A stretch of 64,000 nt of DNA from Undaria pinnatifida (taxonomy: Eukaryota; Sar; Phaeophyceae; Laminariales; Alariaceae), in the NCBI GenBank assembly GCA_012845835.1, contig JABAKD010000011.1, positions 2,658,501 to 2,722,500 of the forward strand. The letters are read 5' to 3'. Positions 27,951 through 60,752 of the stretch are shown here, piece by piece. Numbering within the stretch: position 1 is the first letter of the stretch; each line of letters starts with the position of its first letter. The notes under the pieces were generated by a model, which saw only the letters and a list, made by a program, of their open reading frames with translations, had not been told where the DNA came from and searched no databases. Made by a program: the position numbers and the translations under genes.

Positions 27951-28025
27951 GTGATACTTACCGCGTCTGATGAGCTGGAGAGCCAGCTGAAAGCTTTGCT
28001 GACCAGCACCGTTCAAGCGAAGCAG
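27951..28025 (+). CDS. GT2-like gene, exon B
   Basis: The acceptor is CCCCCTGACACAG; the exon is exactly 25 codons and reads VILTASDELESQLKALL, then TSTVQAKQ. Joined in phase to exon A it gives VTVILTASDE, the first Rossmann-type strand and following helix of a GT2 fold (compare the common V-T-V-I-x-T-x-x-x-E pattern). The donor is AAGCAG/GCAAGA, a GC-AG intron; no GT at this point keeps the phase. A degenerate copy of the exon end lies 198 bp downstream. Confidence 0.75.
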
Positions 28026-28185
28026 GCAAGAACCCTCCCCCCCACTCCTGCTTCCTCCCGATGGTCTCAAGACTACGGCCATGGTTATTATGAGTACCCC
28101 CCCCCATGCCGCCGCCTCCGCCGCCGTTGCCGCCACCGCCTCGCCAATAAACATGAAAACCTAAAGAGTTTGTGATATGGTAAGG

Positions 28186-28245
28186 GAATATATAGGCTGG
28201 CTAGCACCGTGCAACTGAAGCAGTCAAGAGCCCCCCCCCCCCCCC
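28186..28245 (+). repeat. degenerate intronic copy of exon B 3' end
   Basis: GCTGGCTAGCACCGTGCAAC and the following GAAGCAGTCAAGAG match exon B and its splice site (AGCACCGTTCAAGCGAAGCAG with intron CAAGAACCC) at an offset of 198 bp, then run into a tract of 22 Cs. The copy's donor GC has become TC, so it could not splice there. Confidence 0.75.
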
Positions 28246-28435
28246 CCCCCCCACCAAACTGGGGACAGACTACTTAAATGAATAGGGTGGAATTCGTTGC
28301 AGCAGTCCGATAGTACAAAGGTTTAAGCGGTTCAGTCGGTTAATGAGCCGTTCATTGCTCATTGGGTGTGTGTTATTCGCATGCAACTTATCTGCACGTT
28401 AACCGCATGTTTCCACTCACCTACATTGTGCACTC

Positions 28436-28658
28436 CTTCCCCCGCCCTCCCTCCCCCCCTCTCCCCCTCCCCCCCTCCCTCCCTCCCTCCCTCCCTCCCT
28501 CCCTCCCTCCCTCCCTCCCTCCCTCCCTCCCTCCCTCCCTCCCTCCCTCCCTCCCTCCTCCCTCCCTCCCTCCCTCCCTCCCTCCCTCCCTCCCTCCCTC
28601 CCTCCCTCCCTCCACCCCTCCCTCCCTCCCTCCCTTCCTCTCTCCCTCCCTCCCTCCG
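28436..28658. repeat. (CCCT)n microsatellite
   Basis: More than 200 bases of CCCT with few interruptions. Its long open frames (Pro/Ser/Leu on +, Glu/Gly/Arg on -) are artefacts. Confidence 0.95.
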
Positions 28659-28782
28659 ACCTACCGACCTCCCGACCTCCCGACCTCCCGACCTCCCGAC
28701 CTCCCGACCTCCAACCTCCCAACCTCCCAACCTCCCAACCTCCCAACCTCCCAACCTCCCAACCACCCAACCACCCAACCCT
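28659..28782. repeat. (CGACCTC)n / (CAACCTC)n 7-bp minisatellite
   Basis: Directly abuts the CCCT tract. About six CGACCTC units are followed by about eight CAACCTC units and then CAACCAC variants, a graded change of unit along the array. Confidence 0.9.
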
Positions 28783-28824
28783 CCCCCTCTCTCACATTGT
28801 CATAACACCGTAAAAACTAATCAG

Positions 28825-29036
28825 GTGTGGGTGGCTATGCCCGCAAAAGGCGCATCCGTGTCCCGCTTGATCGTGGACAACTATCGAAGGGGGGGGCGAT
28901 TCGGCGACCGATTGCGCGTGGTGATGTCCGATTTTTTTACCGGGTTTCCCCCCGAGGAAGGGATCGGGGGCGGCGATGGCAGCTTCTTTGACAGCACCCT
29001 AGGGCTGTTCCAGCTGGCGATGCAGGCCGGGACAGA
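28825..29036 (+). CDS. GT2-like gene, exon C
   Basis: The acceptor is CTAATCAG and the donor ACAGA/GTGAGA. About 70 codons read VWVAMPAKGASVSRLIVDNY, then RFGDRLRVV, ending FFDSTLGLFQLAMQAGT plus a split codon. In GT2 proteins the second strand and helix (often V-x-V-V-x-x-G-S) and the 'G-x-x-x-A-x-x-A-G-T' helix before the Asp motif fall here, so the order is right. Phase 0 entry and phase 2 exit match exons B and D0. Confidence 0.8.
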
Positions 29037-29735
29037 GTGAGAAGAAACCTTTTTGTGTGTTTGCGTGGTTAGCGTTGTTTTGTTTTTGTTTTTGTTGTTT
29101 TTGTTTTTGTTGTTTTTGTTTTGTATTTTTTTTTCCTCGTGTGTATGTTTTTTCAGTGTTTTTGGCGAGTCTTTTTTTTTATATTTGTGATGTTTTGGTG
29201 TGCTCTATGTTTTGTGTTTTTTTGTGTGTGTTTTGTGTATGTGATGTGCGTTTTGCGTGTTTTAAGTGCTTTGCGTGTTTTTTTGGTATGTTTGGCTTAT
29301 GGGGATGCATTTTTGATGTGGTGAGTGCTTGAAGGTGTCGATGGGTGTGCGTCCGTGTCTGATGGGATGTTTTGTGCCCTCTTCTCTCTTGCCCGTTGGC
29401 CCTGCCCCCCCCCCCCCCTCCTGGTTGTATATTGGGGTTGGTGTTGGTTAGCAACGACGCTCTAAAACATGCCAATCACTGCGTGAGCTAGACAACCAGG
29501 GTACTTTTTTTTTTTTTTTGGCGGTCACCATGATGGTTATCGAGTAGATCCTGTTGTGCGGGGTGGAGAACCCTAACTCCGCAGAAGGGGGATGATCGTA
29601 TCACGTATTAATAGTGTGATTATGGTAAGGAACCCACGAGACAGTTACATAGTAAAGTACCCATTGCTGTCTCTGGAGTGGCCACATCAGAAAACAAAGT
29701 AACCCATTGGCGCTGCCATCCATAAGCAAGTAGGC

Positions 29736-29957
29736 ACATGGTGCCGAAGTCCGTCTCACGGGCGGTTCTTGGAAGGATTCAGTTCACCCTTCATGCGACT
29801 CGCCGAACACCTCACGGCGCCTCGCGCTTGGTGCAAGCAATGTCTGCCTGGTTGGTGAAAACCCGACGTGCTCCGTCCCGGCATAGTAGGGATGCGAGGG
29901 TTTATGGTCATACGACTACGGCCATGCACAAACTGAGTACCGCCCCCCCCCCCCCCC
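29736..29957 (-). repeat. dispersed repeat, CATAGACCCTCGCATCCC family, full copy
   Basis: Inverted relative to 60790-60965 and closely matching over about 200 bp (GCATAGTAGGGATGCGAGGG, TTGGTGAAAACCCGACGTGC, ACTCGCCGAACACCTCACG). It lies in the intron just before exon D0 and ends in a tract of 18-20 Cs. Confidence 0.8.
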
Positions 29958-30010
29958 CCCACTCTTTGGGCGTTTCGTTTCCGTTTCGGCTTCGGCTTGG
30001 TCGTGCGCAG

Positions 30011-30154
30011 CTTCATCTGGATCATCAATCCCGGGATTTGTCCCGGTCCAAAGTTTCTGGAGCTATTGTCGCACGTCTCCGGATCGAGCGAGCTAACCGG
30101 GGTCTTTGGCGGAGAGGGGGGTCTCATGCCTGCCGCGCCTACCAGGGCCTGGAG
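30011..30154 (+). CDS. GT2-like gene, exon D0
   Basis: The acceptor is TCGTGCGCAG; the first base completes a codon from exon C (GA+C, Asp). It then reads FIWIINPGICPGPKFLELL, then SHVSGSSELTGVFGGEGGLM, leaving two bases (AG) before GTGATT. It corresponds to the family's 'Y-V-W-I-(V/L)-D-x-D-x-x-P-G-x-x-F-L-E-x-L' segment, with a Gly-rich turn after it. The expected acidic D-x-D/D-D position reads I-I-N-P, although the split codon before F is Asp. The 3' end of this exon is the seed of the repeat array that follows. Confidence 0.75.
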
Positions 30155-31035
30155 GTGATTTTATTCAATTGGCGGGAGGATTTTAAGGGTTGGGCTTGGG
30201 GCATGCGTGGGGGGGGGGAAGGGGGTGCATTTTTTTCATGCATGGCCACCATAGACCCTCGCAATCCTACTATGCCATACGTGAGGGCAGGGAGGTGGAG
30301 AGCGAGGGGGGGATCATGCCTGCCGCGGCTACGAGGGTATGGAGGTGGATTTATTGACGGAAAAGATTTTCGAGAGCGAAGGCGCAAGCGTGCGTGACGG
30401 GGGGAGGGGCACTAGGGCCTAGAGATGACTTGATTGGTGGCAGGATTTCGTGGGCTAGGGTACAGGCATGCGTCCGGGGGGGGTGGGGGGGGGGTGGGGG
30501 GGGGGGAGGGGGGGGTATGATGTCTGTCGCACCCACTAGAACCTGGAGGTGATTTTTTTGGCAGAACGGAAGAGGGTTTCGAGGTCTAGGATACAGGCAT
30601 GCGTGATCGAATCAGGGGGGGGGGGGGGGGGGGGGGAGGGAGGCTTTTGCCCGCCGCCCCCACGGACGATTGATTTGGCGGAAGAGTTTCAAGGGCTAGG
30701 GTGCAGGCGTGCGTGACTGGGGGAGGGAAAGTAAGCTTTGCCTAGTGCCTGCCGCGAACACGAGTGATTGATCGGCGGAAAGGCTTCGAAGGCTGCGATG
30801 CGGACATGCGTGACGGGAGCGAGGGGAGGGTGAGCTTGGCTTGTTGCCTGTGGCGGCCACGAGTGATCAATTGGTGAAAGGGTTTCTAGGGATAGGGTGC
30901 AGGCTTGCGTGACCCCCCCCCCCTTCTCCCCTCTCCTCACAGCCTCCTGTCATGTTAATCGCATCTGTGGTCACCTTCGTGATGACTGGTTGGTGGAAGG
31001 GTTTCGAGGGATAGGGTGCAGGCTTGCGTGACCCC
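30121..31035. repeat. degenerate tandem array seeded by the exon D0 3' end
   Basis: The exon end and donor (ATGCCTGCCGCGCCTACC, then GCCTGGAGGTGATT) followed by 'GGCGGGAGGATTTTAAGGG..GGGCATGCGTG' recur with heavy divergence. The best-matched junction copies are at about 30316-30400, 30405-30480 and 30520-30610, with 'GAAGGGTTTC.AGGG.TAGGGTGCAGGCATGCGTGA' halves at 30660, 30760, 30870 and 30985. About eight units of 80-120 bp are separated by G or C tracts (22 Gs near 30615). Some units keep a GGAGGTGATT donor and others have lost the GT. Confidence 0.75.
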
Positions 31036-31143
31036 CCCCCCTCCTCCCCTTTCCTCACCTCTCCACCCGCACTCCCCCTCCCGCTCCCACCCCGCCTTCG
31101 CCCCCGCTCCCACGTCCACCCCCTCCCCCCCTTTCATCGCTAG

Positions 31144-31408
31144 AGAGCGGAACGACCTTGACACGAGTTCAGCACACGCACTCTTCGCGTTGTGGAATGC
31201 CGGGAACGAGCAAACAGCAGCAACGAGGGGGGAAGCGGCTGCGCGGTGGAGCAAGATGGGGAGCATGGCTATAGGGGGGACTGATGCGTCGACCGCGGCT
31301 ACGGAGCTGTCTTCCGTGGATGTTTTGTTTTCTCAGTGGTATTTGCACAGGGACCTGGTGCGGTTGTTGTTCAGGGAGAGGTGGACACCGCAAGGCGAAT
31401 ACTCTGCG
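31144..31408 (+). CDS. GT2-like gene, exon D
   Basis: The acceptor is CTTTCATCGCTAG and the donor TCTGCG/GTGAGA; phase 2 in, phase 0 out, 88 full codons. After a variable Ala/Thr-rich part it reads ATELSSVDVLFSQWYLHRDL, then VRLLFRERW and PQGEY. The segment V-D-x-L-x-x-x-W-(F/Y)-L-x-R-x-x-x-R-L-L-(F/W)-R-E is a strong landmark of this family, normally followed by T-G-E-D, here Q-G-E-Y. The end of the exon is duplicated 144 bp downstream. Confidence 0.8.
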
Positions 31409-31501
31409 GTGAGATGCGCTTTCGTGTCGACGTTTTGTCCTCTAACTCCGGTAGGGAAAGGCTCCCGTATCGTGTGGAAACCCTTTGATGTATTTTAGAA
31501 A

Positions 31502-31655
31502 AAACGGTTGCTGTTTTGGGAGAGGCGAACGCCGCAAGGCGAAGACTCTGTTTTGGGATGATGCTTCGCTTGTTTTGTATATTTTTTGCAATTTAGTGAC
31601 CCATGTCTCCTCTTTTCCCGGTAGGGAAAGCCTCCGTATTTTGTGGTTGGGATGT
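31502..31655 (+). repeat. degenerate intronic copy of exon D 3' end
   Basis: CGGTTGCTGTTTTGGGAGAGG, then CGCCGCAAGGCGAAGACTCTG, copies the end of exon D at an offset of 144 bp. It continues past the junction, since CGGTAGGGAAAG occurs both at about 31449 and at about 31619. The exon's CTGCGGTGAGATG has become CTGTTTTGGGATG, so the donor GT is lost and the frame would not continue. Confidence 0.8.
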
Positions 31656-32013
31656 TGTTCTTGTTTTCCCATTGCGGTTGTTATTGTGCTTTGGCTGTGG
31701 TAGTACTTCTTTATTTTTCGTTTTCCGTGCGATCGATTAGTAATCGAGACGCTTAGTCCTGTTGACTGAATCCATCCCTCGCCCGTTGACCCCTCCCCCG
31801 TCCCCCCGTCCCCCCGTCCCGCCCATGTTATCTAGAGGTTTAGCTGCCAAGGGAATATGGGAGTTATTTTAAATGATTCCGAAACAAAAGGTTAGTTGCT
31901 TTACAATCTATGGAATTGCTTCTCACTTTAAAATAATTGTCACCCCCCTTCCATCCCCGTCCCCCCGCCCGCCTCCCCTCCCCCCCCCCTCTGTTTGGAA
32001 ATATCGAAAACAG

Positions 32014-32628
32014 GCACTCGCGCTCTCCTATGGCCTTCGTCGGTACGCGGGCATCCAAAGCTACGTCCTCCCCTCCGACCCCGACCTGCCCGAGTACAAT
32101 GCGGAGGTCGCTGTGGCGGGTACCGCTGCTAGGGCCGAGGGCGGGGTGGAGGCGCGCGGCAAGGAGGCGAACGAAGATAAGCAATCAAAACATTTTCGTC
32201 GCGCCCATGCTAAGCCGCCGACCAGCCGCCCAGCTGAGAACGGCGATGGTTACGGTATCGTTAAAGGCAACGTAAACGGTGACGTTAACCGTAACCTTAT
32301 CGCTAACGACAACGCTGACCCTAGCGGTAACGGTAACAAACACGCGATGGCGGTGAAAGCGGCGGAGGCGGCCCGGGAACTTATAAGGAAATTACGGGAC
32401 CCTCCCCTAATTTCCGTGTTTAGGGAGCAAGTGACCAGGGGGGGAAGGTTCTTTTGGACCCCCGAGCAATACCCGCGAGAGCTGGTGGTGCTTGTGGTGG
32501 ATGGAGTGCGACAGGCGGAGCTCTTGGAGCCGCTGTACCGGGAGTTGGTGATGACGGCGAGGGTGGAGGAGGAGGCGGCGGCTGAGGGTGGGGGTGGGGG
32601 TGGAGCCGCGGAAGTTTTTATTGCCGTG
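32014..32628 (+). CDS. GT2-like gene, exon E
   Basis: The acceptor is ATCGAAAACAG, preceded by a C-rich tract; the donor is GCCGTG/GTGAGA; exactly 205 codons in phase 0. It starts ALALSYGLRRYAGIQSYVL, then PSDPDLPEY, the end of the first GT2-like half (family pattern L-S-Y-x-L-R-K-Y-A-x-I-x-x-Y-V-L-P). A variable Asn/Asp/Gly-rich insert of about 70 residues follows. The exon ends with a second conserved block, ELIRKLRDPPLISVFREQV, FFWTPEQYP, LVVLVVDGVRQAELLEPLY and EVFIAV, which I take as the start of the inter-domain region. Confidence 0.8.
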
Positions 32629-32711
32629 GTGAGAGATGGAAGATGGAAGATGGGAGGGACGGGCGTTGGAGTTGTTATTGGGTAGGATTGGAAGGGCCGG
32701 GGGGGGGGGGG

Positions 32712-32990
32712 GTTGTTCTTGTTAATTGTCGTTGTTGTTGTCGTTGGTGCTGGTGCTAGTGCTGTGTTGTCGGTGTTTGTGTTGTTGTTTTTGCTCTTGC
32801 TCTTGCTCTTGGTGGTGGTGGTGGTGGTGGTGGTGGTGGTGGTGGTGGTGGTGGTGGTGGTGGTGGTATTGGTGGTGTTGTTGTTGTGGTGGTGGTGGTG
32901 GTGGTGGTGGTGGTGGTGGTTTTTGTTGTGGTTGTTGTCGTGGTGGTGGTGGTGGTGGGTTTTGTTGTGGTCGTTGGTCATTGTTTCTAC
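32712..32990. repeat. (GGT)n microsatellite in intron E
   Basis: Two near-pure GGT/GTG blocks separated by about 20 bases. Val/Trp/Gly and Thr/His open frames on the two strands come from the repeat. Confidence 0.95.
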
Positions 32991-33736: not shown

Positions 33737-33861
33737 GAGTGGAGCAAGAAAACATGTAGTAATTAATAGGTGGTGTCTCGATCAGGGTTCACCGCGGGGT
33801 TGTTGTCCATTATTACTATTGACTACGAGTAGGTTTTGACTCATGAAAAAGTGACAAAAAA

Positions 33862-33945
33862 CGAGCGACCGGTGTATCACGCATCTTTTGCAAAGATGAG
33901 TATCGGCCCTAAATTTTGTCGAGTTCGCAGCTGGCGTGGTCAGAA
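33862..33945 (+). repeat. solo 'TTGCAAAGATGAG..CAGCTGG' repeat in intron E
   Basis: Carries GCGACCGGTGTATCACGC, TTTTGCAAAGATGAGTATCG and GTCGAGTTCGCAGCTGGCGT, a diverged relative of the 17.7-22.1 kb blocks. Confidence 0.6.
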
Positions 33946-33957
33946 TAATTTAATAGC

Positions 33958-34178
33958 AAGGTATTGGAACCGTCGATCGAAGGTCATTTGTTAGCTTAAA
34001 GTCAACCTAAACCACGAAAAAATCGGTCATTAGAAAAACGTTTTCCTACGACGTACTTTTTTCCCAACATGTTAGTAGTTTATTCACGGGTTGGTTTGAT
34101 TGGCTGGCTGGGTTTTATTGTCAATACTGTTATTATACTGGTATGTTTTCTAACCCAACGTGAAATGCAATTCGTGAA
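33958..34178. mobile_element. diverged GTGTTTGCGA-family element in intron E
   Basis: Shares the layout 'GGTATTGGAACCGTCGA ... ACGAAAAAATCGG ... GGGTTGGTTTG ... AACCCAACGTGAA..TTCGTGAACTCC' with 8748-9025 and 27415-27713. It lies close upstream of the next exon. Confidence 0.5.
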
Positions 34179-34210
34179 CTCCCTATCATCATCACTTTAC
34201 GCGACAACAG

Positions 34211-34396: not shown

Positions 34397-34578
34397 GTGA
34401 GGCCGGAGGAGAAGGGAGTTGGGGGCTCGGGGATGGAGCGCGGGATAACGTGGAAAAGGCTAAGGAAAGCGGCGAGGTGGCTCGCGAGCAGCAGCACGGA
34501 CATTACCACGGTTAGGGGAGGCGGCTCGTTGGATTGGTCGCGGAGAAACAGCAGGAGCTCGTCGGAGGAGTCGGGCAG

Positions 34579-35572
34579 GTGATGATGCAGTAGGTGGTGG
34601 TCCAGTAGGTTGGTGGCAGTATTTATAGCAGGTAGTGCGGTGTTGAGTTAATGTCAGCAGCGCTGACATCGCCGCTGGTAGTGCTGTGGAAGAAGCTGAG
34701 CAAGGTGGTGCAGTAGGCGGTGCAGTAGGTCGTGCGATAGGTCGTGCAATAGGTCGTGCAATAGGTGGTACAGTAGGTGGTGCAGTAGGTTATGTGGTAG
34801 GTGGTGCAGTAGGTTATGTGGTAGGTGGTGCAGTAGGTTATGTGGTAGGTGGTGCAGTAGGTTATGTGGTAGGTGGTGCAGTAGGCAATGTGGTTGGACA
34901 TGTAGGTAGTTCAGCAGGTGTGTAGGTCATGCAGTAGGCGGTGCTGTAGGTCATGCAGTAGGCGGTGCTGTAGGTCATGCAGTAGGCGGTGCTGTAGTTC
35001 ATGTAGTAGGCGGTGTTGTAGACCGGGTAGTGGGTAACGCAAGTAAGTCAGTAGACCATGCAGTAGGCCCCGAAGTAGGGCAGGGTAGGTCGTGCAGTGG
35101 GTAATGTAGATGATGCCGCAGACCTTGCGGTAGGCGGTGCAGTAGGCCAGACAGCAGGCCAGGCAGTAGACTAGACACAAGTGCATGCGGTAGACCAGGC
35201 AGTAGGTAGTGCTGTAGGCCAGACAGCAGGTTAGACAGTAGGTAGTGCAGTATGCCCAGCAGTAGGTCAGACAATACGCCCGGCGGCAAATGATGCACCA
35301 AGTGGTGCAGTAGGCCATGCAATGGGTAATGCGGTAGGACGTGCAGTTGGCAGTGCAGTATACTGGGCAGTAGGTGATGGAGTAGATAATGTGTAGGCCG
35401 TGAATTTGGCGAGGCAATAGGGAATGAATGCACTAGCAGGGCAGCAGACCAGGCAGTAAACCTAGTGGTGGACCAAGCAGAATAATATGCAATAGGCCAG
35501 GCGGTAGACCAGGCAACCAGGCAGAGGGTCAGGCTGTAGGCCAGGCCACAGGCCAGGAAGTACCGGTAGGCG
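34579..35572. repeat. 1-kb 'CAGTAGGTNNTG' minisatellite
   Basis: The motif GTGCAGTAGGT and variants (GTGCTGTAGGTCAT, GTGGTAGGTGGT, CAGACAGCAGG) recur every 10-30 bp for about 1 kb. A cleaner 30-bp period lies at 34780-34890 and a 33-bp one at 34925-35010. Long open frames on both strands (Val/Gly or Thr/Tyr/Cys) are artefacts. The array starts at a candidate 5' splice site and ends at a candidate 3' splice site (GTAGGCGGTGTGGCAG). Confidence 0.9.
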
Positions 35573-35581
35573 GTGTGGCAG

Positions 35582-41040: not shown

Positions 41041-42200
41041 GCCTCAGTCATTTGACCATTAACCACGCATTCCTTTCGAAACGGAGCACCGTTCCTACTC
41101 CTAATAGAGACACCTCCAACATTTGGGCGCTCATTGCGATTTTTCCAAACACTGTTTGCCTATCTTATTCCTTCCTGTTTCGTCATCTGTGGCCACCATG
41201 TATCTCCTAGGATAGCGATCGTTTTTTCACTTCTCTCTAGTCTATCAAACTCTTCCATGCCACATTCGTCTAATTTCCTCATCTCCCGTAACACACCCCG
41301 TTCCTCGTTGTATATTTCACATCCTTCTATTATGTGAGTCCTACTCTCTATTATTGTGCCAACGGGCACATATATGCATCCACGTCCTCCTCCCCCTATC
41401 TTATTCCCTTCCTGTTTCGTCATCTGTGGCCACCATCTATCTCCTAGAATAGCGATCGTTTTTTCGCTTCTCTCTATTAATAGTCTACCAAACTCTTCCA
41501 TGCCACATTCGCCTAATTCCCTCATCTCCCATAACACACCCCGTTCCTCGTTGTTTATTTCACATTCTTCCATTATGTGAGTCCTACTCTCTATTGTTGT
41601 GCCAACGGGCACATATATGCATCCACGTCCTCCCCCCGACTACTGGAATATCTGTTTCTTTCTGGTAGGTCCAGGCCCCCTACACGAAATCACAGTTTCT
41701 TTTTTTTTCGCGTAGTCCATTGGGCCGTGCAAATACGTTTTCATTCCATACCTTCCCCTCAACCCCCCGTATTTCTGTAAGTGTTTAACGATATTTCTTA
41801 GCGCTGGCCTTTCCCTTTCTTCTATACTTCTTTTACTTCTGTTTTGTACCCGCCAAACTTCTCTATGGACAGTACCTCTTATTGGTCTCCTCTTAAATCC
41901 TTCCATATTTTCTCGACTACGTTGTCCCATCTAATTCCAGCTCGCCCGTTCCTTACTTTCTCCTATACAGCCGTACCAGCTATCGCTGGCAACCTCTTTT
42001 CAGGCATATTCCTTGCTTTATATTGCCATTCCAACTTTCTCACGACTACGAGTATTTGTTTTAACTCGGTACATTCATAGCTCTGCTCTTGATACTGTAT
42101 TACTGGTCGTACTCGAGCTTCCTAGTTGTCATTTGCCCTGTTTCCAGTTGCTCTAGCGTTCCCTTCCCATACTTCTCCTGCGTACTTTAGCTTTGGTACA
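41041..42200 (-). mobile_element. LINE retrotransposon fragment: reverse transcriptase C-terminal region, decayed
   Basis: Minus-strand pieces in several frames read, in order: YAGEVWEGNAR; RKLEWQYKARNMPEKRLPAI; GRAGIRWDNVVEKIWKDL; EERERPALRNIVKHL; LHGPMDYAKK; ESRTHI..CEI.NEERGVL; SEKTIAILGDRWWPQMTKQE; NERPNVGGVSIRSRNGAPF; VNGQMTEAR. These are landmarks I recall from the C-terminal thumb/zinc-knuckle part of non-LTR retrotransposon proteins; the clade was not determined. Stops and frameshifts interrupt it, and the polymerase core, endonuclease and 5' end are absent. The 41157-41395 segment is duplicated. It lies antisense in intron I of the GT2-like gene. Confidence 0.85.
41157..41636 (-). 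repeat. tandem duplication (about 240 bp) within the LINE fragment
   Basis: Two head-to-tail copies, about 41157-41395 and 41396-41636, each encode the ESRTHI...WWPQMTKQE segment on the minus strand. They differ by scattered substitutions (TATTAT/TATTGT, GGATAG/GAATAG) and a three-base indel plus a small one, so the duplication occurred in the genome after or during decay. Confidence 0.85.
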
Positions 42201-43280: not shown

Positions 43281-43475
43281 GCGCTGGCGTACTTGCCCGG
43301 GGGCTGCTTCGAGCGGTGGAGGAAGCCGGCCATCGTTCTAGTCTTGGTTCACCACGAGGGGGAGGCTCCCAGCCTGCTCTCGTGGACCCTCAGATCTCTG
43401 GCCACGGCACAGTACATGGGGGACACTGTCGAGCTCAGGCTGGCCCTGCACGCGACCGCCGCCAGCAGCGCGGTG
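43281..43475 (+). CDS. GT2-like gene, exon J (start of second domain)
   Basis: The acceptor is CGCACATACAG and the donor GCGGTG/GTGAGT; exactly 65 codons in phase 0. It reads ALAYLPGGCFERWRKPAIV, then LVLVHHEGEAPS, LLSWTLRSLATAQYMGD, TVELRLALHA. The W-x-x-P-x-I-V-L-V-L-V strand, a short loop, then 'L-L-x-x-L-R-S-L-x-x-A-x-Y-x-G-D-x-V-x-L-x-(I/L)' is the most recognisable landmark in the gene and matches the opening of the second GT2-like half of this family. The exon end is duplicated in the intron 194 bp downstream. Confidence 0.85.
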
Positions 43476-43650
43476 GTGAGTGGTGATGCGGGGTGGATGA
43501 GGAGATAATGTTGTTGTTTTCAATATGTATCCAGACGGCCACAATCTTCAAATCTTCAATTTTCGCAAAAGTTCCAAGTCTCCATTTTTTTAGTTGTCTG
43601 TTGTTCATTATTTCGCAAACAAAAGAAAGCAGAACTAAACGCAAGCTCCG

Positions 43651-43790
43651 CCGGCAGCACCGTTCCGTGGTGAGTAGGGATGCGGGGGAAGGGGATGGAC
43701 GGGGGGTGGTTGTTGGCGTTGTTGTTTATGCTGCGCGTCGAGACGGCACAATCGAACTTCAAATATTCCAAAGCTGCAAAAGTGCGAATG
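43651..43790 (+). repeat. degenerate intronic copy of exon J 3' end and donor
   Basis: CCGCCGGCAGCACCGTTCC, then GTGGTGAGTAGGGATGCGGG, copies the exon J end (CCGCCGCCAGCAGCGCGGTG) and its intron start (GTGAGTGGTGATGCGGGG) at an offset of 194 bp. Downstream likeness continues (AGACGGC[C/A]ACAATC, ATCTTCAA / AACTTCAA). This is the only single-copy case in which the GTGAGT donor is intact. Confidence 0.75.
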
Positions 43791-44021
43791 TTGAATTTTT
43801 CATTTTTCAAAATTCATTTTTTTAAGATGTTTTTTTTTCACTTTTTTCACTTTTTCACTTTTTTTTCAATTCTTGCTGTTTTTCTCCCGGCCCTAAAATG
43901 CTTGTCCTGCCTCCTTTTCCTTCTGCCCCTTCGCTCCTTGCGCGGTTGTCCTGTTTGTTCCTTCGCATGACCAATTATGTGTATTGCGCCATGTACAAAA
44001 AAAAAACGATGAAAAAAACAG

Positions 44022-44222
44022 ATTGCCGAGATTTTGAGGGAATTTAAGTGGGAATGGGGCCCTGTGGATGTGTCTTATTTCTTCGGCGGTCACGCCGGCG
44101 GTTCCACGTCTCCGGACGGATTGGCGGCGCTGGAGGCGTTTGCGGACGCCGGGGTTCACAGTCACGTTATCCCCTTGTTTTCGGGCGCTCAGCCGGATTC
44201 GCAATTTTACGTCTGGCTGAAG
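44022..44222 (+). CDS. GT2-like gene, exon K
   Basis: The acceptor follows an A-rich stretch (GATGAAAAAAACAG) and the donor is CTGAAG/GTGAGC; exactly 67 codons, phase 0. It reads IAEILREFKWEWGP, then VDVSYFFGG, and ends VIPLFSGAQPDSQFYVWLK. The first block corresponds to the family's 'F-x-W-x-x-G' and the last to '(L)-E-D-D-x-x-x-S-P-x-F-Y-x-W-L-K'. Here the E-D-D positions read S-G-A, so the acidic metal-binding motif appears lost while the flanking F-Y-V-W-L-K is perfect. A second, decayed copy of this exon end lies 624 bp downstream. Confidence 0.75.
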
Positions 44223-44285
44223 GTGAGCGAAGACGCTATTGTTAACAAAATATTCTAACAACGTCAGCTGTGGGTTCGACGAATT

Positions 44286-44720
44286 TAGGGTCGATACTAA
44301 TCTTTGCAAGCTGCGTACTACACCGGTCACTCGTTTATAGTAACTTTTCATGAGTTAAAAGCTAACATAAGACTATTTTTATACAGCAATGGTGTTCCCT
44401 CTATGGTGCGGGTATGTATGTGCACTGTAGAGGGAAATACCGGCACTATAGCGGCGACCGGCACTACTCCGCATATTACCACTACTGGTTGTTCCCATCT
44501 GTGCCAGGAGGCGGTCATTCCAGGGGTCACGCCACACGCCCCATTTAGTAACCCTTTTAGCACCGCACTCCCAACATGGGGCAAAAACACTTGGACTTAG
44601 ACTATGATAGAATAATGTTATTAATAGGAGTTGGAAATGGGTTAAATGCGAATAGAATACTGCGGTGGTCCCTTCATAGTGCCGGTCGCCCGCTATAGTG
44701 CCTGTGAAATCGCTCGCATG
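44286..44720. repeat. nested repeats in intron K, 'GCGGCGACCGGCACTA' family
   Basis: Includes ACTATAGCGGCGACCGGCAC at about 44445 and its inverse (GTGCCGGTCGCCCGCTATAGT) at about 44680. Related sequence lies at 55630-55760. Between them 44540-44610 is similar, inversely, to 49868-49925 (CCCAACATGGGGCAAAAACA; TGTTTTGTCCCCATGTCGGG). The insertion of this block explains the long offset of the exon K copy. Confidence 0.6.
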
Positions 44721-44754: not shown

Positions 44755-44850
44755 TGGAGGCGTTTGTGGTGCCGGGGTTCGTAGCCGTGTCCCCTTGTAT
44801 TCCGACGCTCAGCCCGATCCGCCCTTGTATGTGTTGCTGAAGCTTAGAAC
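44755..44850 (+). repeat. decayed intronic copy of exon K 3' end
   Basis: TGGAGGCGTTTGTGGTGCCG, then CCCCTTGTATTCCGACGCTCAG, ending GTTGCTGAAGCTTAGAAC, follows the second half of exon K base for base with substitutions and small deletions. The junction CTGAAG/GTGAGCG reads CTGAAG/CTTAGAA, so the donor is destroyed. Confidence 0.8.
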
Positions 44851-45266
44851 AAGTGTGGTTGTAATAGACCTCGGGTTGGCGCCTTGAATTACCCCCCCCC
44901 GCCCACTCAAGTTACCGTAGGGTATTTATATCCTGTATTTGCTGTTGTTTGATGTGCGTGAATCGTACAACCTGTCTTGCGGTGGTGTACGTATCGTTTC
45001 GACCGGTGGTAGGGTTTGTTATTGTACATGGTATGTAGTTAATGTCTCGTTGTTAACACGGGTAGAGTATGAATCATAACCGCTTGCTGTTTGAAAAGTA
45101 CCTTACCCTGGGATGATGCACGTTTCGTTGGTACCTGGTTGTATTTGCTGCTGCTATTTGCCCTGATAACATCCATGGGAGGCGCACACCTCCAAAGACT
45201 AACCCATCTGCTAGAGCGCGCGACGGGTGTATCACGCAGCGCTTGCAAGGGGATGAGTATCGACTC

Positions 45267-45384: not shown

Positions 45385-45610
45385 CGTTATATTACCCCTC
45401 AAGAACGGCTTCTATAGTTGCCGCGCACAGATTGATTAACGTCATCCTGTTGACCCTGGTACAAGCTACACTGTAGCTCTAAGAGGAGTCGGCGACCTTT
45501 GTCCTTAATGAGGACACACCCAGTAAATAGCACCACATACAGCTTGCAAAGATGAGCTTCGACGAAATCTTCGATCCCACAGCTGGAGTGTATTTGTATT
45601 TGTTACGAAG
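45385..45610 (+). repeat. solo block of the 17.7-22.1 kb repeat family in intron K
   Basis: Runs TTCTATAGTTGCCGCGCAC, CATCCTGTTGACCCTGGTAC, GTCCTTAATGAGGACACAC, AGCTTGCAAAGATGAGCTTC, CCCACAGCTGGAGTGTATTT, in the same order as 19250-19480 and 21790-22000. Confidence 0.8.
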
Positions 45611-45844
45611 TATATTTTAGTAAAGTATCATACAGATACCACCCGGCAACCGTTTGCGCGAGAACTGCGTCGTGCAGATCCCACCGGGCAAACATAATCT
45701 ACTAGCAGATCGTGCAGATCGTGGAGTAAATCACAGCTGATCGTGGAGTAAATCAGCTGATCGTGGAGTAAATCAGGAATATATTTGCCCCGAAATATCT
45801 GTAGGTTAAACTAGACTGAGGCTTGATCTGTCCCATGTGTGAAT

Positions 45845-48745: not shown

Positions 48746-51000
48746 GTTGTGAAAGGTTTTCCTAATCTAGCTCGAAGCGTTTTGTTTCCGTAGCGGGAGT
48801 GCAGTGTGCTAAAAGCGAACATATCGGTTGACGGACGGTCTAGTTTTGATCCGTCAAGGCCGTCTTTGGACTTATCGTACTAGTTTTAGTGTGTGGAGTT
48901 CCTTGACGGCTGTCCTGTCCGTCAAGGAGCAAGAGTGCCGTGATCCGACATCTTTGGTAGCGGTTAACTTTCTTTGTACTCTGTTGCAATCCCCCCCTCC
49001 ACACACTTTCTTCCCATCCGAAAGAGGTTTCGGTCTGTCCTTTGTTGGTGGTGATGGTAGTGGTGGTGGCGGAGGAGGTGCCGGTGGTGAAACTCGTAGC
49101 GGTGGTAAGCAGTGGCAAGGCCGCAGCAGTGGTGGGAGAGGAATGGTTTTTGTGTTTGGTCTGTTGAGCCCTCCACGCGTTGTGCAGTTGGAACCGGCCG
49201 TGGTGTGGGCGTGCTCGTGGGACGTGTGCTACCACTGCTACTACCACCGCGGTTGTTGTTTTTCTGGTGCATTGTTGCTGCTGTTGCTGCTTCTGTTGTT
49301 TGGTGCATTGCTGCTGTTGTTCCCTGCTTTTGGGGCGTTTGGTGTTCTACTGATTCGCGGACCCGCATCCTCCTGCTGCATTGCTGCTGTCCGGCTGCGG
49401 CGGGTCGTAGTTAGTATGTGCTCATTGGTGGATGCTCCTTCTGTTGCGCTGCCGTTGTTCTGTCACTTCTATCTATTCGTGGGTGCTTCGTATTTGAGGT
49501 AGTTTTAGCGCGGGGGGGTGTTGGTAGTAGTGGTTGGTTGCAAGCGGTGGTACGGCTTGCACTTTTTTCGTACTGCTGGTGTTGTTGCTGCTGCTACTGC
49601 CGTTGGTGATACCAAGGTTGGTGCTGGTGTTGTGTTGGTGCTGCTTTAGCTGTTTGTTATTATTGCTGCGATTAGTTCTGCTGTTGCGGCTACTGCTGCT
49701 ACTGCTGCTGTTTTTGCTGGTGTGCTACCGTTTTTGCCAGCTGGTTGTTGCTGCTGCTGTTGGCGATGGTACGATAGATGCTGCCGCTGTGAAGACTACG
49801 CGAGTGATGATGCGTGTTGATTAACCCATTGCCAACTATTAATACCAGGTATATTATCCTATTAATAGTCTAACGCCAAGTGTTTTGTCCCCATGTCGGG
49901 AGTGCGGTGCTGAAAGGGTTGATATGGTCTGTACCTGGCAAGGGGGAAGACAGATGCAATGCTAATGTTCTTTTTGGCGTTATCATGGAGAAGACTAATG
50001 CAGTAGAGTTCAGGAACCGAACCAAGGAACAAAAATTGTCTCTTCTTGCGAGCAAGAATAGCGTGGGCGTTTTGGTTCAGGTTATGTGGGTTAATAGCTG
50101 ACTCTGATTGCAGCAGCATGGCAATGGTTGGTCGCGTGAGTGGCAATACCATGTGGGTACAGCACGGGACGGTGCCGGCAGGCTGGTAGAAATATCAGTC
50201 TATAGCTGTCTAATAGTAGCGCAGCTGCTGGGCCAGGTGTTCGTGATTTCTCTTTGGGTCGCCTGATTCTCCCCAATTTATTTTTTGGCACTGTCATATG
50301 GATGGGTATGGGCGGGTGGGTTTGGTGGTGGCTCAGGTTTTGTTTTTTCACGTTTGGGTTCCCAATCCACAGTGTTTCGCAATACCCAGTCGTACAGTCC
50401 GCGGTAGCTGTCGATAATTAGTTGCTGACCTACGGTTCGGTGAAACAAGCTATTCGAATAGTGGGACCCAGGTGTCGGGACCTCACAGGTATCAGAAGAA
50501 GAGGGGCTTTTTCAAAGCGTCAACGACTAACCTCGTGAGCAGTGCATGCACCCTTGGTTTTGGAGAGAAAACAGTCGGAATTAGAGTAGAGGACCCATTT
50601 TGTACGATGGTGGTTGAAAGGGTTGATAGTGGCATGAGCTCATAGCAGTATGTTATGCGTATATTAAGCGGGATGTTGTTATGCTTGTTTCGTATGTTTT
50701 ATCTCCTTGCATCGACGGACGCGAAGTACTCTACCGGCATGTATTTCCCCTGTAACAATGGACTATTTTCCCCAGCGGTGCTTCTTGCTGCGGCCGATCT
50801 GTACTTGCTACACCCGCCTGTTGTTGTCGTTTTGTCCCTCTCACGTCCTAAGGTGGTGATAACCGCTTCGGAAAGTGCACCCATACTACTTGGGATTAGT
50901 GTGGGGTAGTTTTTGCAGTAGTAAAAAAAGGGTGGGAAGCAAATGGTGGGAAGGGGGGGAACTTCCCCACGCTTGAGTTTGGCAGGGGCACTGCTTTTTA
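48746..51000. other. codon-repeat rich region, no gene supported
   Basis: Long + frames at 48828-49500 and 49534-49824 consist of Gly, Leu, Ala and Cys runs from GGT and CTG triplets. A perfect-looking inverted pair (TTGACGGAC and GTCCGTCAA, about 48831 and 48923) gives a possible 90-bp hairpin. A block at 49860-49930 is an inverse relative of 44540-44610. Nothing matches a protein family. Confidence 0.45.
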
Positions 51001-54450: not shown

Positions 54451-54458
54451 CGAGATGG

Positions 54459-55435: not shown

Positions 55436-55560
55436 GGGAGGGGGGCATTCATGCATGGCCGTAGTCTTCAGACCATAGACTCTCGCATACCCTGCAAAGC
55501 CAGGACGGAGCACGTCGAGCTGTCGCGGACTAGGCAAACGGGGGACCATCACGAGCGTTG
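55436..55560. repeat. dispersed repeat, CATAGACCCTCGCATCCC family, partial copy
   Basis: GCATGGCCGTAGTCTTCAGA, CCATAGACTCTCGCATACC and GGACGGAGCACGTCGAGCTG match the 60790 copy, followed by divergent sequence. Confidence 0.65.
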
Positions 55561-56149
55561 GTCGTTTGACTCTGCCACCGCATTGACTCCGTGGCGGCAT
55601 GAACACAGCAATACACTCTTGGTCTCCTCTATAGCGACGGTATAGTGGTTCCGGTGACCCGCTTTAGTGCCTGTGAAATCGCTTCGCAAAGATTGGAACA
55701 CCGGTAGTGACCGTATGCGGGTTAGCGTTGATTGCCGCTATAGCGCTGGAATTTCCGGCCGGCACATATCGGCGGTAAAAAGCAACCACGACCGTAATAC
55801 AGCAAAAACATCGTTTGTGATGGGGCTATCTAAAACAGGACGCGTTTCCTGCATCGCGACGGGACTCTCATAAATAATACCAGGTGGCAGTCAAGACACG
55901 GAAAAAGCGAGAAACGTAAGAGCACCGTCTCCCCCCCCCCTTCTTCCTTCCGTCCATCTTTCTTGATCGGTTTCATTTCCACCGGATCTGCACCGCCTGA
56001 GACAAAGAAAAACAACAGGAAACCCCTGAGCACCCCTCATCCCCTACTCCCCTTCCCGCACACACCAACAATCCTCGCACACCACACCAACTCCCGAGAA
56101 ACAAAGGAGGCAGAAGGGAGGGGGGGGGGAGTGGGCGAGCGCCCTGCTC

Positions 56150-56775
56150 CTCCTGCTCCTCCTCTGCCGAGCACGGCCGCCATCCACCGCTCCCTCCTTT
56201 ACTACGTCCAGAACGAGTGACCCGACAACAACGCCTCCGTACAACGTCAATGGGGATGAGGGGGGGGGGGCTTGAACGCCGCCGTACATCGTCAATGGGG
56301 GAGGGGGGAGCGGTGCTGCTCCTCCTCCTGCTCTTGCTCCTCCCCCTCTGAGTGCAGTCGAGCCGTTGTCCCTTGTCCACTCCCCAACATCCAGGACACA
56401 CGACGTGAACATAACGCCACCGTACAACGTCTACTGAGCGGGGGGACGCGGTCCTCCTCTTCCTTCTCTGAGTACAGTCTAGTCGATATCCCCTGCCCCC
56501 TCACCAACATCCAGAACGCGTGACGCGAAAATAACGCCGTAACGCCGCCGTACAACGTCGTCGACTGGGGGGGAGGGGTCCTCCTCCTCCTCCTCCTCCG
56601 AGTACATTTTTCGGTGGCTCGGGGCATCCTCTACAGTAGCACATCCACAGGTTTGGTGTAGACACGGAGGCTGGCATGTTAGTGTGGGAACCGCAATACG
56701 TAACCGACATTGGAGATCTGGGATCGTCACCGACTACTCGTTACTCCCTGTCCCCTCCCGCACGCCCAGGACACA
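56150..56775. repeat. degenerate tandem array with GTACAACGTC motif
   Basis: About five units of 60-130 bp built from 'AACGCCGCCGTACAACGTC', a G-run, 'CTCCTCCTCC..GAGTACAGTC' and 'CACCAACATCCAGAACACG'. On the minus strand units read 'YGGVIFASRVLDVGEG..'-like peptides, in the same frame for some units only. It could be another exon-end array, but I cannot identify a parent exon with confidence. Confidence 0.65.
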
Positions 56776-57399
56776 AGCAACTCCAAACTTACGTCGCTGC
56801 CGCCGCCGCTACACAACATCGACCCGTCACTTGAAAAGCTAAGAAAACATCGGAGTAGGAGGTGCCCGACCCGAAAACCAAGACCATCGAATAGTTTGGA
56901 AAGAGGTAAAAAGCCTAGCCCCCCCCCCCCCGCCCAAGAAACACCTCCACCTCCCTCCCCTTGCGACACGTCTTCCCTTCCTCCCCTCCTTAACTTCCGT
57001 CGCTGTTTTCCGCTAGTCCTGCTGTCCCCATGCCCCACTAAAACACGCCACCAAATATTAAACCATCCGAGACAGCTCTATGCCCCCTCCCAGTACAGCA
57101 AACGTGAAGGGATGGGAGCAAAGCAAGAAGAGGGAAAAGGTCAACCCAGACAGTCACCCTTTTTTTTCATCTCGAGAAAAAAACGGGGACGTAGATAAGG
57201 AGGAAGGGGAAGGAGGCGGGGGGGGCAACAGTGCGAGGGAGCGGGGGCGGTCCACGGCTTATACCCCCTTGCCTCTTCTTGGTGTGTCGAAAAACGCATC
57301 TAGCATGCCTTCCGCCTGTTGGTTGGGTTGGAATGGGCGCGCGGGCGGAGGACACAGGAGAACGGAGCGGGCAAGGCGCAGAGGTTAGCTAGAGGACGT

Positions 57400-58150
57400 C
57401 GCTCGGTTGGGGCTTTGCAGGGGTTAGGTTTAGGGTTAGCTCACTCAAAGAGTTGAAAACACGGTAAACGTGGAGGGCAAGGTACGCAGATTCCCGTCAG
57501 TCTCCGATCACGCATGCCAACTATCAAGACGCGATACACCAACGCCCGGTCTACATGAGATCTGCCATCAATGATGGATCTCCACATTGGGTGGAACGTT
57601 CGGCAATAACATGAAAACCCCGAATGCAACCGGAAGCCAAGGGCTCTGCCTCTACGAGAACGACCCCTAGACCTCAGCCCCATGTTCTCACTATCGCATG
57701 TCTCCCGCTTGACGCGAGGCAGGTTTGCGAAGGCACCTCCTTGCTACACGTACTACAAAACAAGTGAGTCTCGGCCTCGGCCAAACCCCGCGCCCCAGGC
57801 CAAGACGAGGCCGAGATCATCGGAGGAGAAGACCTTCATATATATACGGCGTCGACGATGGGATTGGTAAATTCTAATGTCCGCCGCCCGTAACTAGCTC
57901 CCAGGGAAATCATCCATGGAGAAGACTCATGGGTGTCCTCGCGACGAGGAGAGCCACCCACAGTACTACAACTACGGCCACCTTGAACTTCGCAGGAGTC
58001 CGGGGCCAGCATAGCTGTACCTCCCGGCTCGATAGAGATGGGCCCGATTCAAGGAACAAAGACAGAACAAGAGCTGGCGGACAGGTGCCACAATAGAGGT
58101 CGTAGAAGTTTTGGGCGTTTTTTTTTTTTTTGGTTCTGAATGACGGGGGC
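57400..58150. other. no gene recognised; repeat fragments
   Basis: Contains relatives of 51775-51925 and of 53250-53400 and short frames on both strands. No splice-consistent coding signal. Confidence 0.4.
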
Positions 58151-58153
58151 TCC

Positions 58154-58242
58154 TTAACCCCTTTAGAGCCCAAAATCCCTCCTTATACTAACTTCAAGTA
58201 ACTTTGTCTCCCCTGAAGGGTTTCCAGTTGTAAAGGCGTTAA
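58154..58242. mobile_element. 89-bp TTAA-flanked MITE, inverted copy
   Basis: TTAACCCCTTTAGAGCCC at one end, CCAGTTGTAAAGGCGTTAA at the other. It has the same length as 9061-9149 in opposite orientation, and the best-preserved termini. Confidence 0.8.
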
Positions 58243-58476
58243 TTAACCCAAAGTCGTTGGAACGTCGTTCATTTTTGCCTTGCAAGGTAAATGTACGTAT
58301 GTAAATATTGTATACTGAGTATATTGTATACCTAGGCCAGGGGGTTTGTTTATATATCGGATGGCATTTTTCAGTTTACTCTATACTATTAACAACTCAG
58401 TTTCAGGGTGAGGCAGAGAACTCCTCAAGAAGCAACGACCCTCAGAAGGCAAAGATGGTGCACCTTTAGTTTTTGG

Positions 58477-58564
58477 CTAACGTGTTTACAACTGGAAACC
58501 CTTTTCGGGCACAAAATTACTTGAAGTTAGTATAGGGAGGGGTTTGGGGGCTTTAAAGCGGTGT
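58477..58564. mobile_element. TTAA MITE copy with eroded ends
   Basis: GTTTACAACTGGAAACCC, TACTTGAAGTTAGTATAGGG, ending CTTTAAAGCGGTG. It is inverted relative to the copy 235 bp upstream. Confidence 0.7.
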
Positions 58565-58596
58565 ACTTTAAGGCCATGCGGAGCTCCCTCCTTTGC

Positions 58597-58862
58597 CTCC
58601 GAAACAAAAAAGGGGCACCTTTCTCCTACAGCATGTGTAGGTGGTTACATGTTACGGTTCGGAAACAAAAAAAATGGTGCACCTTTCCCCCTTAGCATGC
58701 GTCGGCGGTTACATGTTACGGTTCGGAAAAATAAATACATGGTGCACCTTTTCCGCAGCATGTGTCGGTGGTTACATACTACGGTTCGGAAAAAACAATA
58801 TGGTGCCCCTTCCCCCTATAGCATGTGTCGGCGGTTACATGTTTCGGTTCCTAAGAACCTGC
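58597..58862. repeat. 63-64-bp tandem repeat, four units
   Basis: GCATGTGTCGGCGGTTACATG, then TTACGGTTCGGAAA, starts at 58631, 58695, 58758 and 58821. The + strand frame through it is open for over 300 codons, but the unit length changes the frame between units and the translation is not repeated, so it is not convincing as a gene. Confidence 0.85.
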
Positions 58863-59180
58863 GCGCCTACGCATATATAGCAAACCCATGCCAAAGACCA
58901 CTTGGGGTAGACTTGCCTGTTGCAGGTCGTCGCCTTGCATGCTCTCCTCCTCCTGCTGATTCGCCCCCCCCGCTCCCACAAAAAGCTCGGTCAACCCGTG
59001 TTCGAACATATACGAGAAATCGGGCTCCGGCTGACAAAAAAACAAGAAGGTGGACCAGAGAAAAGAAGGAAGGAAAGGAAGCAAGGAAAACGTTTCAACG
59101 CACGCGGACGGAGCAGTGGTCAGCACAGAGGTTTCGACACAGCGGTTTGCGCACAGCGGTTTGCGCACAGCGGTGTTTAC

Positions 59181-59273
59181 AAAGATTGAAAACACGCGCC
59201 TCTGCTGTGCGATCGAGGATTTCGCCGTTTGGCGACAGCGGGTTTTTTTCCATCACAAGGTGCGCGAGTGAAT
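59181..59273 (-). CDS. candidate exon of the minus-strand gene
   Basis: Minus strand: acceptor AAAGGTGCAG, then (phase 1) SLAHLVMEKNPLSPNGEIL, then DRTAEARVFNL, donor CTTT/GTAAAC. The peptide looks natural, but a second frame is also open and its phase cannot be linked to the 60066-60752 exon without another exon. A 14-bp AACCGCTGTGCGCA array starts at its donor. Confidence 0.3.
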
Positions 59274-59789
59274 CTGCACCTTTTCTCGTAGATCCAGCAG
59301 CGTTCCGATCGGTGTTACGCATCGATGACAAACATAAAAGCAAAACAGAAACCAAGGATGCGAGAACAGACATGAGCCGTGCAAAAAGCAAAACAACCTT
59401 CTCGCGCGCGCGCGCGTTCCCTCCTGCACCAGATACGAGTCGCACAAAAAGAACACATGGCCCTCCCGCCCCCTGCCCACCCGTCACCCTGCACATCGTC
59501 TCTCACTTTGCAAGGCGACAGCTTCGTCATGAGGGGGGTTAATCCAAGGCCCAAGCCGATTCCTAGCCCTGCCCCTGGGGACTTTTAGAAATACCACGAG
59601 AAAACAAAAGAACGAAAACAGGGAAACAAATAGGAGCAGAGGCGAGAAGGGATTAAAGGACAGCAAAAGGCGAAGGAAAGGAAACGTGAACAAATTTCAT
59701 TGTTACTACTGAAGAAAAACGACCACTGAAGGGGAGGAAGTCAACAACTAAAAATACGATAAACAACTAACTTAAAACATAAAAGTCCA

Positions 59790-60062
59790 TTCCACCCCAC
59801 CCCGCACCACCCCACCCTACCCTGCCCTACCTTACCCTACCCTATTCTACTCTACCCCACCCCACCGTACCTACACTGCTCTACCCTACCGTACCCCGCC
59901 TTTAACCCCACACACCCCTCCACCCATCCGACACGCACTGGTAGGCTGCATACACCCACGGAAGCTTCCTCGGGGCGAGGTCAAGTCCGTGTACCGTACC
60001 GTGCCATACTTTACCCTACCCTACCCTACCCTACCCCACCCCACCCCCACATCCCCTCCACC
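59790..60062. repeat. (CCCTA)n-type pentanucleotide tracts
   Basis: CCCTA/CCCAC pentamers in two blocks, 59795-59905 and 60000-60055, flanking a copy of the neighbouring exon end. They resemble but are not a telomeric hexamer or heptamer. Confidence 0.85.
59917..59990 (-). repeat. degenerate intronic copy of the minus-strand exon end
   Basis: Matches 60055-60128 at an offset of 138 bp (GGTAGGCTGCATACACCCAC, GGAAGCTTCC, GAGGTCAAGTCCG on the + strand). On the minus strand the exon's GACAG/GTGGGTGG junction reads GTCGG/ATGGGTGG in the copy, so the donor GT is lost. Confidence 0.85.
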
Positions 60063-60065
60063 CAC

Positions 60066-60752
60066 CTGTCGCGCGCTGGTAGGCTGCATAAACCCACGGA
60101 AGCTTCCCGGAGGCGAGGTCAAGTCCGCCTGCGCAAGGGTAGGGTAGTCCCCCCCCCCTCCCCTCCGAGGCGTCGCCGCCCCGCCTCCCCCCCCCGCAGA
60201 CGCCGCCGCCATCGCCGCCGCAGCCGCCGCCGTCGCCGCCGCCCCCGCCCCCCCCCCTAACCTAGCAGGCGTTTTTTCGTTCGGAGACGATCTACCATGA
60301 ACATGGCCATGGTTGGGACCATGCCCTTGATGAACCTGTCCGTGGGCATTCCCGTGGGGATTACTATGTCCGTGGGCGTGTAAGTGTCCCTCCTCTCTCC
60401 CCTCCCCCGCCCCCCCACCTCGCTCATCGCTCTGGTGCGGTTGTAATCGATGTCTGGTTCGGCGGTCGTCGGCTAAATTCGATGCTATCATTGCGGAGCT
60501 ACCATCGCGGTGATGGTGGTGGTGGTGTTGGTGACTACCGTCACCGCTAATACTACCGCCACCGCTACCATTAGTACCGTCTTGGTGCCGAGAGTCGACC
60601 AGAGAGCGAGCGTCCTCTAGCTGTGGCTCGTCGTCCTCTTCGTCCCCTCTCCCCCCCCCCCCCTCCTCGTCCTCGTCCTCGTCCTCCCCGTCCCCCTCTA
60701 ACCTGCCTCGCCCATCTGGGTCTTCCCCTCCAGCCTCAATGCGCTCGTCGAC
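60066..60752 (-). CDS. exon of a minus-strand gene: acidic, His-rich disordered segment
   Basis: Minus strand: acceptor CACCCTGCTACAG and donor GCGACAG/GTGGGTGG, 229 codons, phase 0 at both ends. It starts VDERIEAGGEDPDGR, followed by an Asp/Glu run, a stretch with six consecutive His, then a His/Gly block (LHAHGHSNPHGNAHG, QGHGPNHGHVHG), an Ala-rich run and a closing SYPT-like segment DYPTLAQADLTSPPGSFRG, FMQPTSARQ. His/Gly-rich loops of this sort are common in zinc transporters and other metal-binding proteins, but also arise by chance in low-complexity sequence, so no function is assigned. The frame upstream of the acceptor also stays open, into the repeat at 60790-60965. The exon end is duplicated in the next intron. 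Confidence 0.5.

Follow-up and report, generated by a model that had tools for sequence, protein, structure and literature searches.

Here, we present an analysis of a 64,000-nucleotide stretch of the genome of the brown alga Undaria pinnatifida (GenBank assembly GCA_012845835.1, contig JABAKD010000011.1, positions 2,658,501 to 2,722,500 of the forward strand; hereafter, the window), which contains a plus-strand gene of 15 exons and a predicted minus-strand gene with the exons M1 and M2. We found that for six exons, namely B, D0, D, J, and K of the plus-strand gene and M1, the following intron contains diverged sequence copied from the exon 3' end, with each alignment crossing the donor. Using introns of dynein and kinesin genes of the same genome, we found further junction-crossing copies, at similar rates at donors, at acceptors, and in intron interiors. 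The features of the locus that bear on these copies are as follows, numbered from the first letter of the window.

16356-46933, plus strand: gene of 15 exons, running from ATG to stop in a single frame with 14 phase-consistent junctions
28159-28273, plus strand: copy spanning the 3' end of exon B, the donor, and the start of the intron, spaced 198 bp from its source at 27956-28076 (46/64 exonic and 35/49 intronic positions identical); the source donor GC is TC
30304-31030, plus strand: D0 array, seven diverged copies that derive from the 3' end of exon D0, the start of its intron, or both (30304-30392, 30411-30473, 30505-30605, 30633-30715, 30746-30812, 30816-30911, and 30990-31030)
31505-31646, plus strand: copy spanning the 3' end of exon D, the donor, and the start of the intron, spaced 144-170 bp from its source at 31361-31477 (exonic 39/48, intronic 53/68); GT lost
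34577-35273, plus strand: minisatellites with units of 12-15 bp and longer, from the exon F donor on (34577-34616, 34703-35015, and 35139-35273)
43641-43808, plus strand: copy spanning the 3' end of exon J, the donor, and the start of the intron, spaced 193 bp from its source at 43448-43598 (exonic 22/27, intronic 93/117, the alignment thus being mostly intronic); GT kept
44239-44718, plus strand: repeat-family sequence separating exon K from its copy, with inverted arms and pieces matching 33830-33959, 49821-49920, and 55648-55756
44755-44860, plus strand: copy spanning the 3' end of exon K and the donor, spaced 624 bp from its source at 44131-44243 (exonic 72/88, intronic 12/18); GT is CT
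58917-59030, minus strand: exon M2, phase-compatible with M1, ending in a GC donor (CAG/GCAAGT)
59872-59989, minus strand: copy spanning the 3' end of M1 and the start of its intron, spaced 138 bp from a source that begins at 60127 (exonic 56/61, intronic 45/53); GT is AT
60066-60752, minus strand: exon M1, 687 open nucleotides with AG and GT ends, donor CAG/GTGGGT, and the same phase as M2

The host genes

The plus-strand gene would encode a product of 1264 amino acids. Homologues were found in the brown algae Scytosiphon promiscuus, Ectocarpus fasciculatus, and Ectocarpus sp., and two more are EukProt entries. These homologues match 11 of the 15 exons (A, C, D0, D, E, G, H, I, J, K, and L) at E ≤ 0.01; a relaxed search added weak matches to exon Z (0.004) and exon Y (0.20), and exons B and F had no separate match in the protein homologue search. 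The 15-exon gene model is based on these homologues and on the bookkeeping of reading phases. Exon D0 is 52-61% identical to five homologues and, judged by these matches, is a true exon. The donor of exon B, at 28025, is GC (CAG/GCAAGA). No Pfam family scored above the cut-off in a six-frame style scan of the plus strand of 27001-57000 or in the parts of the 1264-amino-acid product tested as exon peptides; Rfam gave no match, and no relative of the gene was found in viral and prokaryotic contigs. The product may possibly resemble a glycosyltransferase family. The minus-strand gene is predicted from frame and splice signals alone, and a protein search with M1 gave nothing at E ≤ 0.01 among 7987 scored candidates.

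Exon-end copies in the window

The sequence-only reading, an earlier interpretation of the window, had listed six exon-end copies that cross the junction, and all six are present. The spacings it had given for B (198 bp), D (144 bp), K (624 bp; 620-624 bp in our alignments), and M1 (138 bp) were recovered; J lies at 192-193 bp instead of the claimed 194 bp, and the first copy of the D0 array lies at +190. The insertion noted in the K copy is the repeat-family sequence, and we infer that the K spacing would be ∼144 bp without it. The D0 array is a multi-copy form of the same junction-crossing duplication. The earlier reading had also placed the pattern in two genes on opposite strands; copies do occur on both strands, with the minus-strand gene itself being the prediction described above.

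To score the matches, 60-base exon ends were compared with the adjoining introns in all four pairings using 200 dinucleotide shuffles, for which the lowest attainable P is 0.005. The last 60 exonic bases matched the downstream intron at this floor for B, D0, D, K, and M1, and at P = 0.025 for J (exonic part). Exon E reached P = 0.010 in the same test, and we do not claim a copy for it. The exonic end of exon F, from whose donor the minisatellites start, has no copy in the satellite or the intron (shuffle P = 0.79). In the three other comparisons (5' end against upstream intron and the two crossed pairings), none of the 14 junctions reached P = 0.05. For the minus-strand exons, the shuffle test found a match on the donor side of M1 and none on the acceptor side of M1 or on either side of M2.

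Within the window gene, donors predominate over acceptors. At a local score of at least 30, matches were present at 4 of 14 donors, 0 of 14 acceptors, and in 61 of 340 interior tiles; counting 5 of 14 donors against 0 of 14 acceptors, the one-sided P is 0.020. If donors were matched at the rate found in other genes (6/77, see below), at least 4 of 14 would occur with P = 0.020 and at least 5 of 14 with P = 0.003. The gene is, therefore, a tail case, and it was chosen because it stood out.

Junctions and interiors in dynein and kinesin introns

For comparison, the 511-Mb assembly, whose contigs are labeled with C and in which the window lies on C13, was searched for exons of dynein heavy chains (PF12774) and kinesins (PF00225), and the junctions between consecutive domain matches were fixed from frame, domain position in Pfam coordinates, and splice signals. 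This gave 78 introns, of which 48 are in 13 dynein regions and 30 in 23 kinesin regions. For dynein, 42 junctions were solved and four failed the cut (score of at least 5, discrepancy of at most one codon); 12 further pairs were solved under a looser stop check, and 10 of them passed, giving 48 introns, of which one was too short for the end tests, leaving 47. Dynein exon pairs that are non-contiguous in the domain were left out, as were the matches on C20, C21, and C18:6500561-6501604. For kinesin, only regions with contiguous pairs were taken, and 30 of 42 exon pairs passed. The local score threshold of 30 was fixed with the dynein matches already in view but ahead of the kinesin data. Interior tiles were excluded when low-complexity bases made up more than one third of them, a filter that was not applied to the exon queries. 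The junction tests sought direct orientation only, and each copy was compared with its own neighboring exon only.

In the dynein introns, copies were found at 4 of 47 donors and 7 of 47 acceptors, and in 35 of 538 interior tiles when looking in the downstream direction and 30 of 512 when looking upstream; in the kinesin introns, the corresponding figures are 2/30, 3/30, 51/509, and 51/491. The tiles are not independent, the interior matches coming from 13 of 42 introns in dynein genes and from 12 of 28 in kinesin genes. Pooled, the rates are 6/77 at donors, 10/77 at acceptors, and 86/1047 in interiors, and they do not differ between donors and acceptors (P = 0.43), donors and interiors (P = 1.0), or all junctions (16/154) and interiors (P = 0.35). 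A shuffle test on the dynein introns gave the same matches (z above 5 at 4/48 donors and 7/48 acceptors; P ≤ 0.05 at 4 and 11, respectively). All 16 junction copies in these genes align across the junction under permissive scoring. Altogether, a recognizable copy is present in the adjoining intron at 16 of 154 junctions (95% interval, 6-16%).

The sequence-only reading had proposed that introns grow by duplication and that this duplication is anchored at the donor. The first part is supported, in that the copies lengthen introns and the 16 junction copies add cases from elsewhere in the genome. The second part is not: duplications affect donors, acceptors, and interiors alike in the other genes, and a donor rate above those of acceptors and interiors is absent in the 78 introns and confined to the window gene. 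That reading had itself named equality of donor, acceptor, and intron-center rates as the outcome contrary to its claim, and this is the outcome in the dynein and kinesin genes.

We made three side observations in these gene sets. The dynein exon between introns 3211-5085 and 5236-6306 of L041 (G000:C52, minus strand) is preceded by a copy of its 5' end and followed by a copy of nearly its whole length. At G000:C21:7013838-7016297 (L012, L013, and L015), PF12774-like matches recur every ∼905 bp, all in an open frame of 1109 amino acids. Finally, two kinesin match sets, G000:C2:16034374-16037637 and 16063521-16066784, have identical scores and are ∼29 kb apart; they probably reflect a recent gene duplication or an assembly repeat.

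Spacing and conservation of the copies

The junction copies are in direct orientation and in the same gene as their source, and their spacing is 105-874 bp at 21 copies; direct orientation, location in the same gene, and close spacing are the marks of local tandem duplication. The median spacing of these 21 copies is 190 bp compared with 144 bp for 21 hand-clustered dynein interior pairs, which is no significant difference (P = 0.14). Exon K was omitted from the spacing comparisons because of the sequence between its copies. Exonic halves are more similar to their source (81.3%, 1182/1454) than intronic halves (77.0%, 984/1278; P = 0.007), and the exonic half is the more similar one in 18 of 21 single copies; this comparison is biased in that direction since most copies were found via the exonic half.

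Origin of the copies

In the dynein and kinesin genes, copies are as frequent at acceptors and in interiors as at donors, and we therefore regard them as ordinary local duplications rather than the product of a special process at one type of site. We suggest, with a probability of roughly 0.8, that introns in this genome gain local direct duplications throughout, that those crossing a junction stay recognizable, and that no special process acts at donors. According to this model, short direct duplications, often with a spacing of 100-215 bp, would keep arising anywhere in introns, probably by replication slippage or repair. When a donor or an acceptor falls within a duplicated segment, splicing would continue at the outer site; the second copy of the exon end would end up inside the intron, where it would be silent and decay, and the protein would be unchanged. 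The source exon is under selection and may, for this reason, remain recognizable for longer.

Several results weigh against this interpretation. First, the 95% interval of the pooled donor rate, 2.9-16.2%, leaves room for a rate up to about twice that of interiors. Second, in a BLAST repeat list for the window gene, the donor was covered in 5 of 13 cases compared with 0.58 expected and the acceptor in 0 of 13, and no circular shift over 22800-46933 reached 5. The P value here is optimistic, because the filter on the list, while using no junction positions, was written after the matches had been seen and drops short-unit satellites. With the satellites kept, 5 of 14 donors are covered compared with 18-22% of interior positions at a score of at least 34-36, and the contrast is weaker; the donor excess is then unclear (for 5 or more of 14, P = 0.13 if the rate is 0.20 and P = 0.047 if it is 0.15). 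Third, the spacing is 100-215 bp in 12 of 16 junction copies but in only 7 of 21 dynein interior pairs (P = 0.02, kinesin excluded); with kinesin added, the comparison is 14/21 against 7/21 (P = 0.06). Fourth, the single donor copies keep GT in 3 of 11 cases, while 7.0 are expected from each copy's own identity (P = 0.016).

The fourth result concerns the fate of the copied splice site. The sequence-only reading had counted a mutated donor in four of five single-copy cases and had explained this by selection against mis-splicing. The count is correct; however, one of the four is the copy of exon B, whose own donor is GC and not GT, and the count left out the D0 array, in which six copies cover the donor and four of these keep GT, one of the two losses (30633-30715) being an alignment gap. 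The deficit is also sensitive to how it is scored: shifting the kinesin C25 donor copy by 3 nt gives it a GT and changes the count to 4 of 11 (P = 0.063), the total is 7 of 17 (P = 0.065) once the six D0 copies are included, and the five single-copy donors of the window alone give P = 0.06. In acceptor copies, AG is kept in 6 of 10 cases compared with 6.7 expected from identity. The C34/1022 acceptor copy has an insertion between its aligned A and G, and scoring this copy as kept instead of lost gives 7 of 10. Altogether, the evidence for a loss of copied donors beyond the surrounding divergence is suggestive only. A tentative idea, which we consider rather unlikely to hold, is that GT decays faster in copied intronic donors than in the sequence around them, with no such acceleration for AG in copied acceptors. 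If it were true, tandem duplication would provide a steady supply of decoy donors that are erased by selection, and brown algal introns would be a test bed for measuring that selection.

The window data and the GT deficit are also what speaks for the mechanism of the sequence-only reading, i.e., that the duplication process or the persistence of its products favors exon 3' ends and that selection then purges the cryptic donors. Five of 13 donors and none of 13 acceptors are covered in the window gene, and one minus-strand exon follows the same pattern. However, in the 78 other introns acceptors were matched at least as often as donors, and the retention of GT in the D0 array and the two rescored counts weaken the case for the purging step; we consider this mechanism improbable. 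A variant of it, in which donor copies persist because acceptor crossings are purged, was dropped because acceptor copies are frequent.

Similarly improbable is a gene-specific or strand-composition effect, in which G-rich intron starts in the window gene, for instance through RNA-DNA hybrids, would make donors a hot spot for local duplication. In this gene, the GC skew over the first 150 intron bases has a mean of +0.27, with 13 of 14 introns positive, compared with −0.37 for the last 150 bases, and two donors (D0 and F) head minisatellites. However, the intron after exon B has a copy and a start skew of −0.37, and the effect rests on one gene; in 40 dynein introns of at least 300 nt, the start skew is +0.05 (positive in 24) and the end skew is −0.16. 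Because the skew is this weak in dynein introns, G-rich intron starts were dropped as the driver. Finally, the least credible of these explanations is that some transcripts use the copies as functional alternative exon ends or duplicated exons. In its favor, GT is kept in J, C19, C56a, and four D0 copies and AG in C13, C34, C26, C33, C25, and C32; against it, other copies have lost the dinucleotide or carry indels, and most hold only part of an exon.

Other features

GC-AG introns look common here, comprising 1 of 14 introns in the window gene, 3 of 48 in dynein, and 2 of 30 in kinesin genes despite a penalty on GC donors in the junction solver; the loci concerned include L034, L032, L045, and L066, and M2 also ends in a GC donor. 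The usual figure for GC-AG introns is ∼1%. Intron Z contains, at 17684-22404, a dense block of direct and inverted repeats, some of which recur at 45395-45618 and 61270-61462. Direct tandem duplications are present at 41159-41637 (spacing 236 bp, 92% identity) and 2556-3142 (288 bp, 98%). At 56148-56606 lies a diverged array of ∼120-bp units, in which the minus strand reads like an acceptor and a donor flanking a short segment; from these signals, this candidate might be a decayed array of a small exon.

Comparison with known systems

In the titles and abstract openings that made up the literature searched, we found no description of recurrent exon-end copies in introns. The closest parallels are three forms of tandem duplication, here taken as outlined in PMC3443670 and PMC4974935. 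In internal gene duplication, a duplicated segment can cross exon-intron boundaries (Gao and Lynch 2009, via PMC3443670 and PMC4974935); as in our case, this is a local tandem segment with exonic and intronic sequence. In contrast to internal gene duplication, the copies described here are diverged, the exon-intron structure is apparently unchanged, and the second copy is intronic.

Tandem duplication is also a source of new introns, as reviewed in PMC3443670. AGGT-type intron gain (PMC3443670 and PMC4974935) involves, like the copies described here, the tandem duplication of splice-site sequence; however, in the AGGT model the new intron lies between two exonic AGGT copies, whereas here the intron runs past the second copy to a distant acceptor. 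Consistently, the introns in the window are not bounded by the two copies and continue to the acceptor of the gene model. In the potato RdRp gene, according to the account in PMC4974935, a duplication crossing an acceptor created a new intron with a cryptic donor. Our acceptor copies likewise span a single intron-exon boundary, but a new intron formed in potato, while none is seen here.

Brown algal introns are long. The autosomal introns of Ectocarpus have a median of 524 bp and are described as long, with tandem repeats relatively evenly distributed (PMC12477816), and the mean intron of Saccharina is given as 1,057 bp (PMC4421812). Local duplication is one route by which such introns may grow. 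About 1 in 10 of the sampled junctions has a decaying copy of its own sequence in the adjoining intron, and one splice site of each such pair can presumably decay freely. U. pinnatifida therefore offers a large natural set that would allow a direct measurement of selection on cryptic donors and acceptors.

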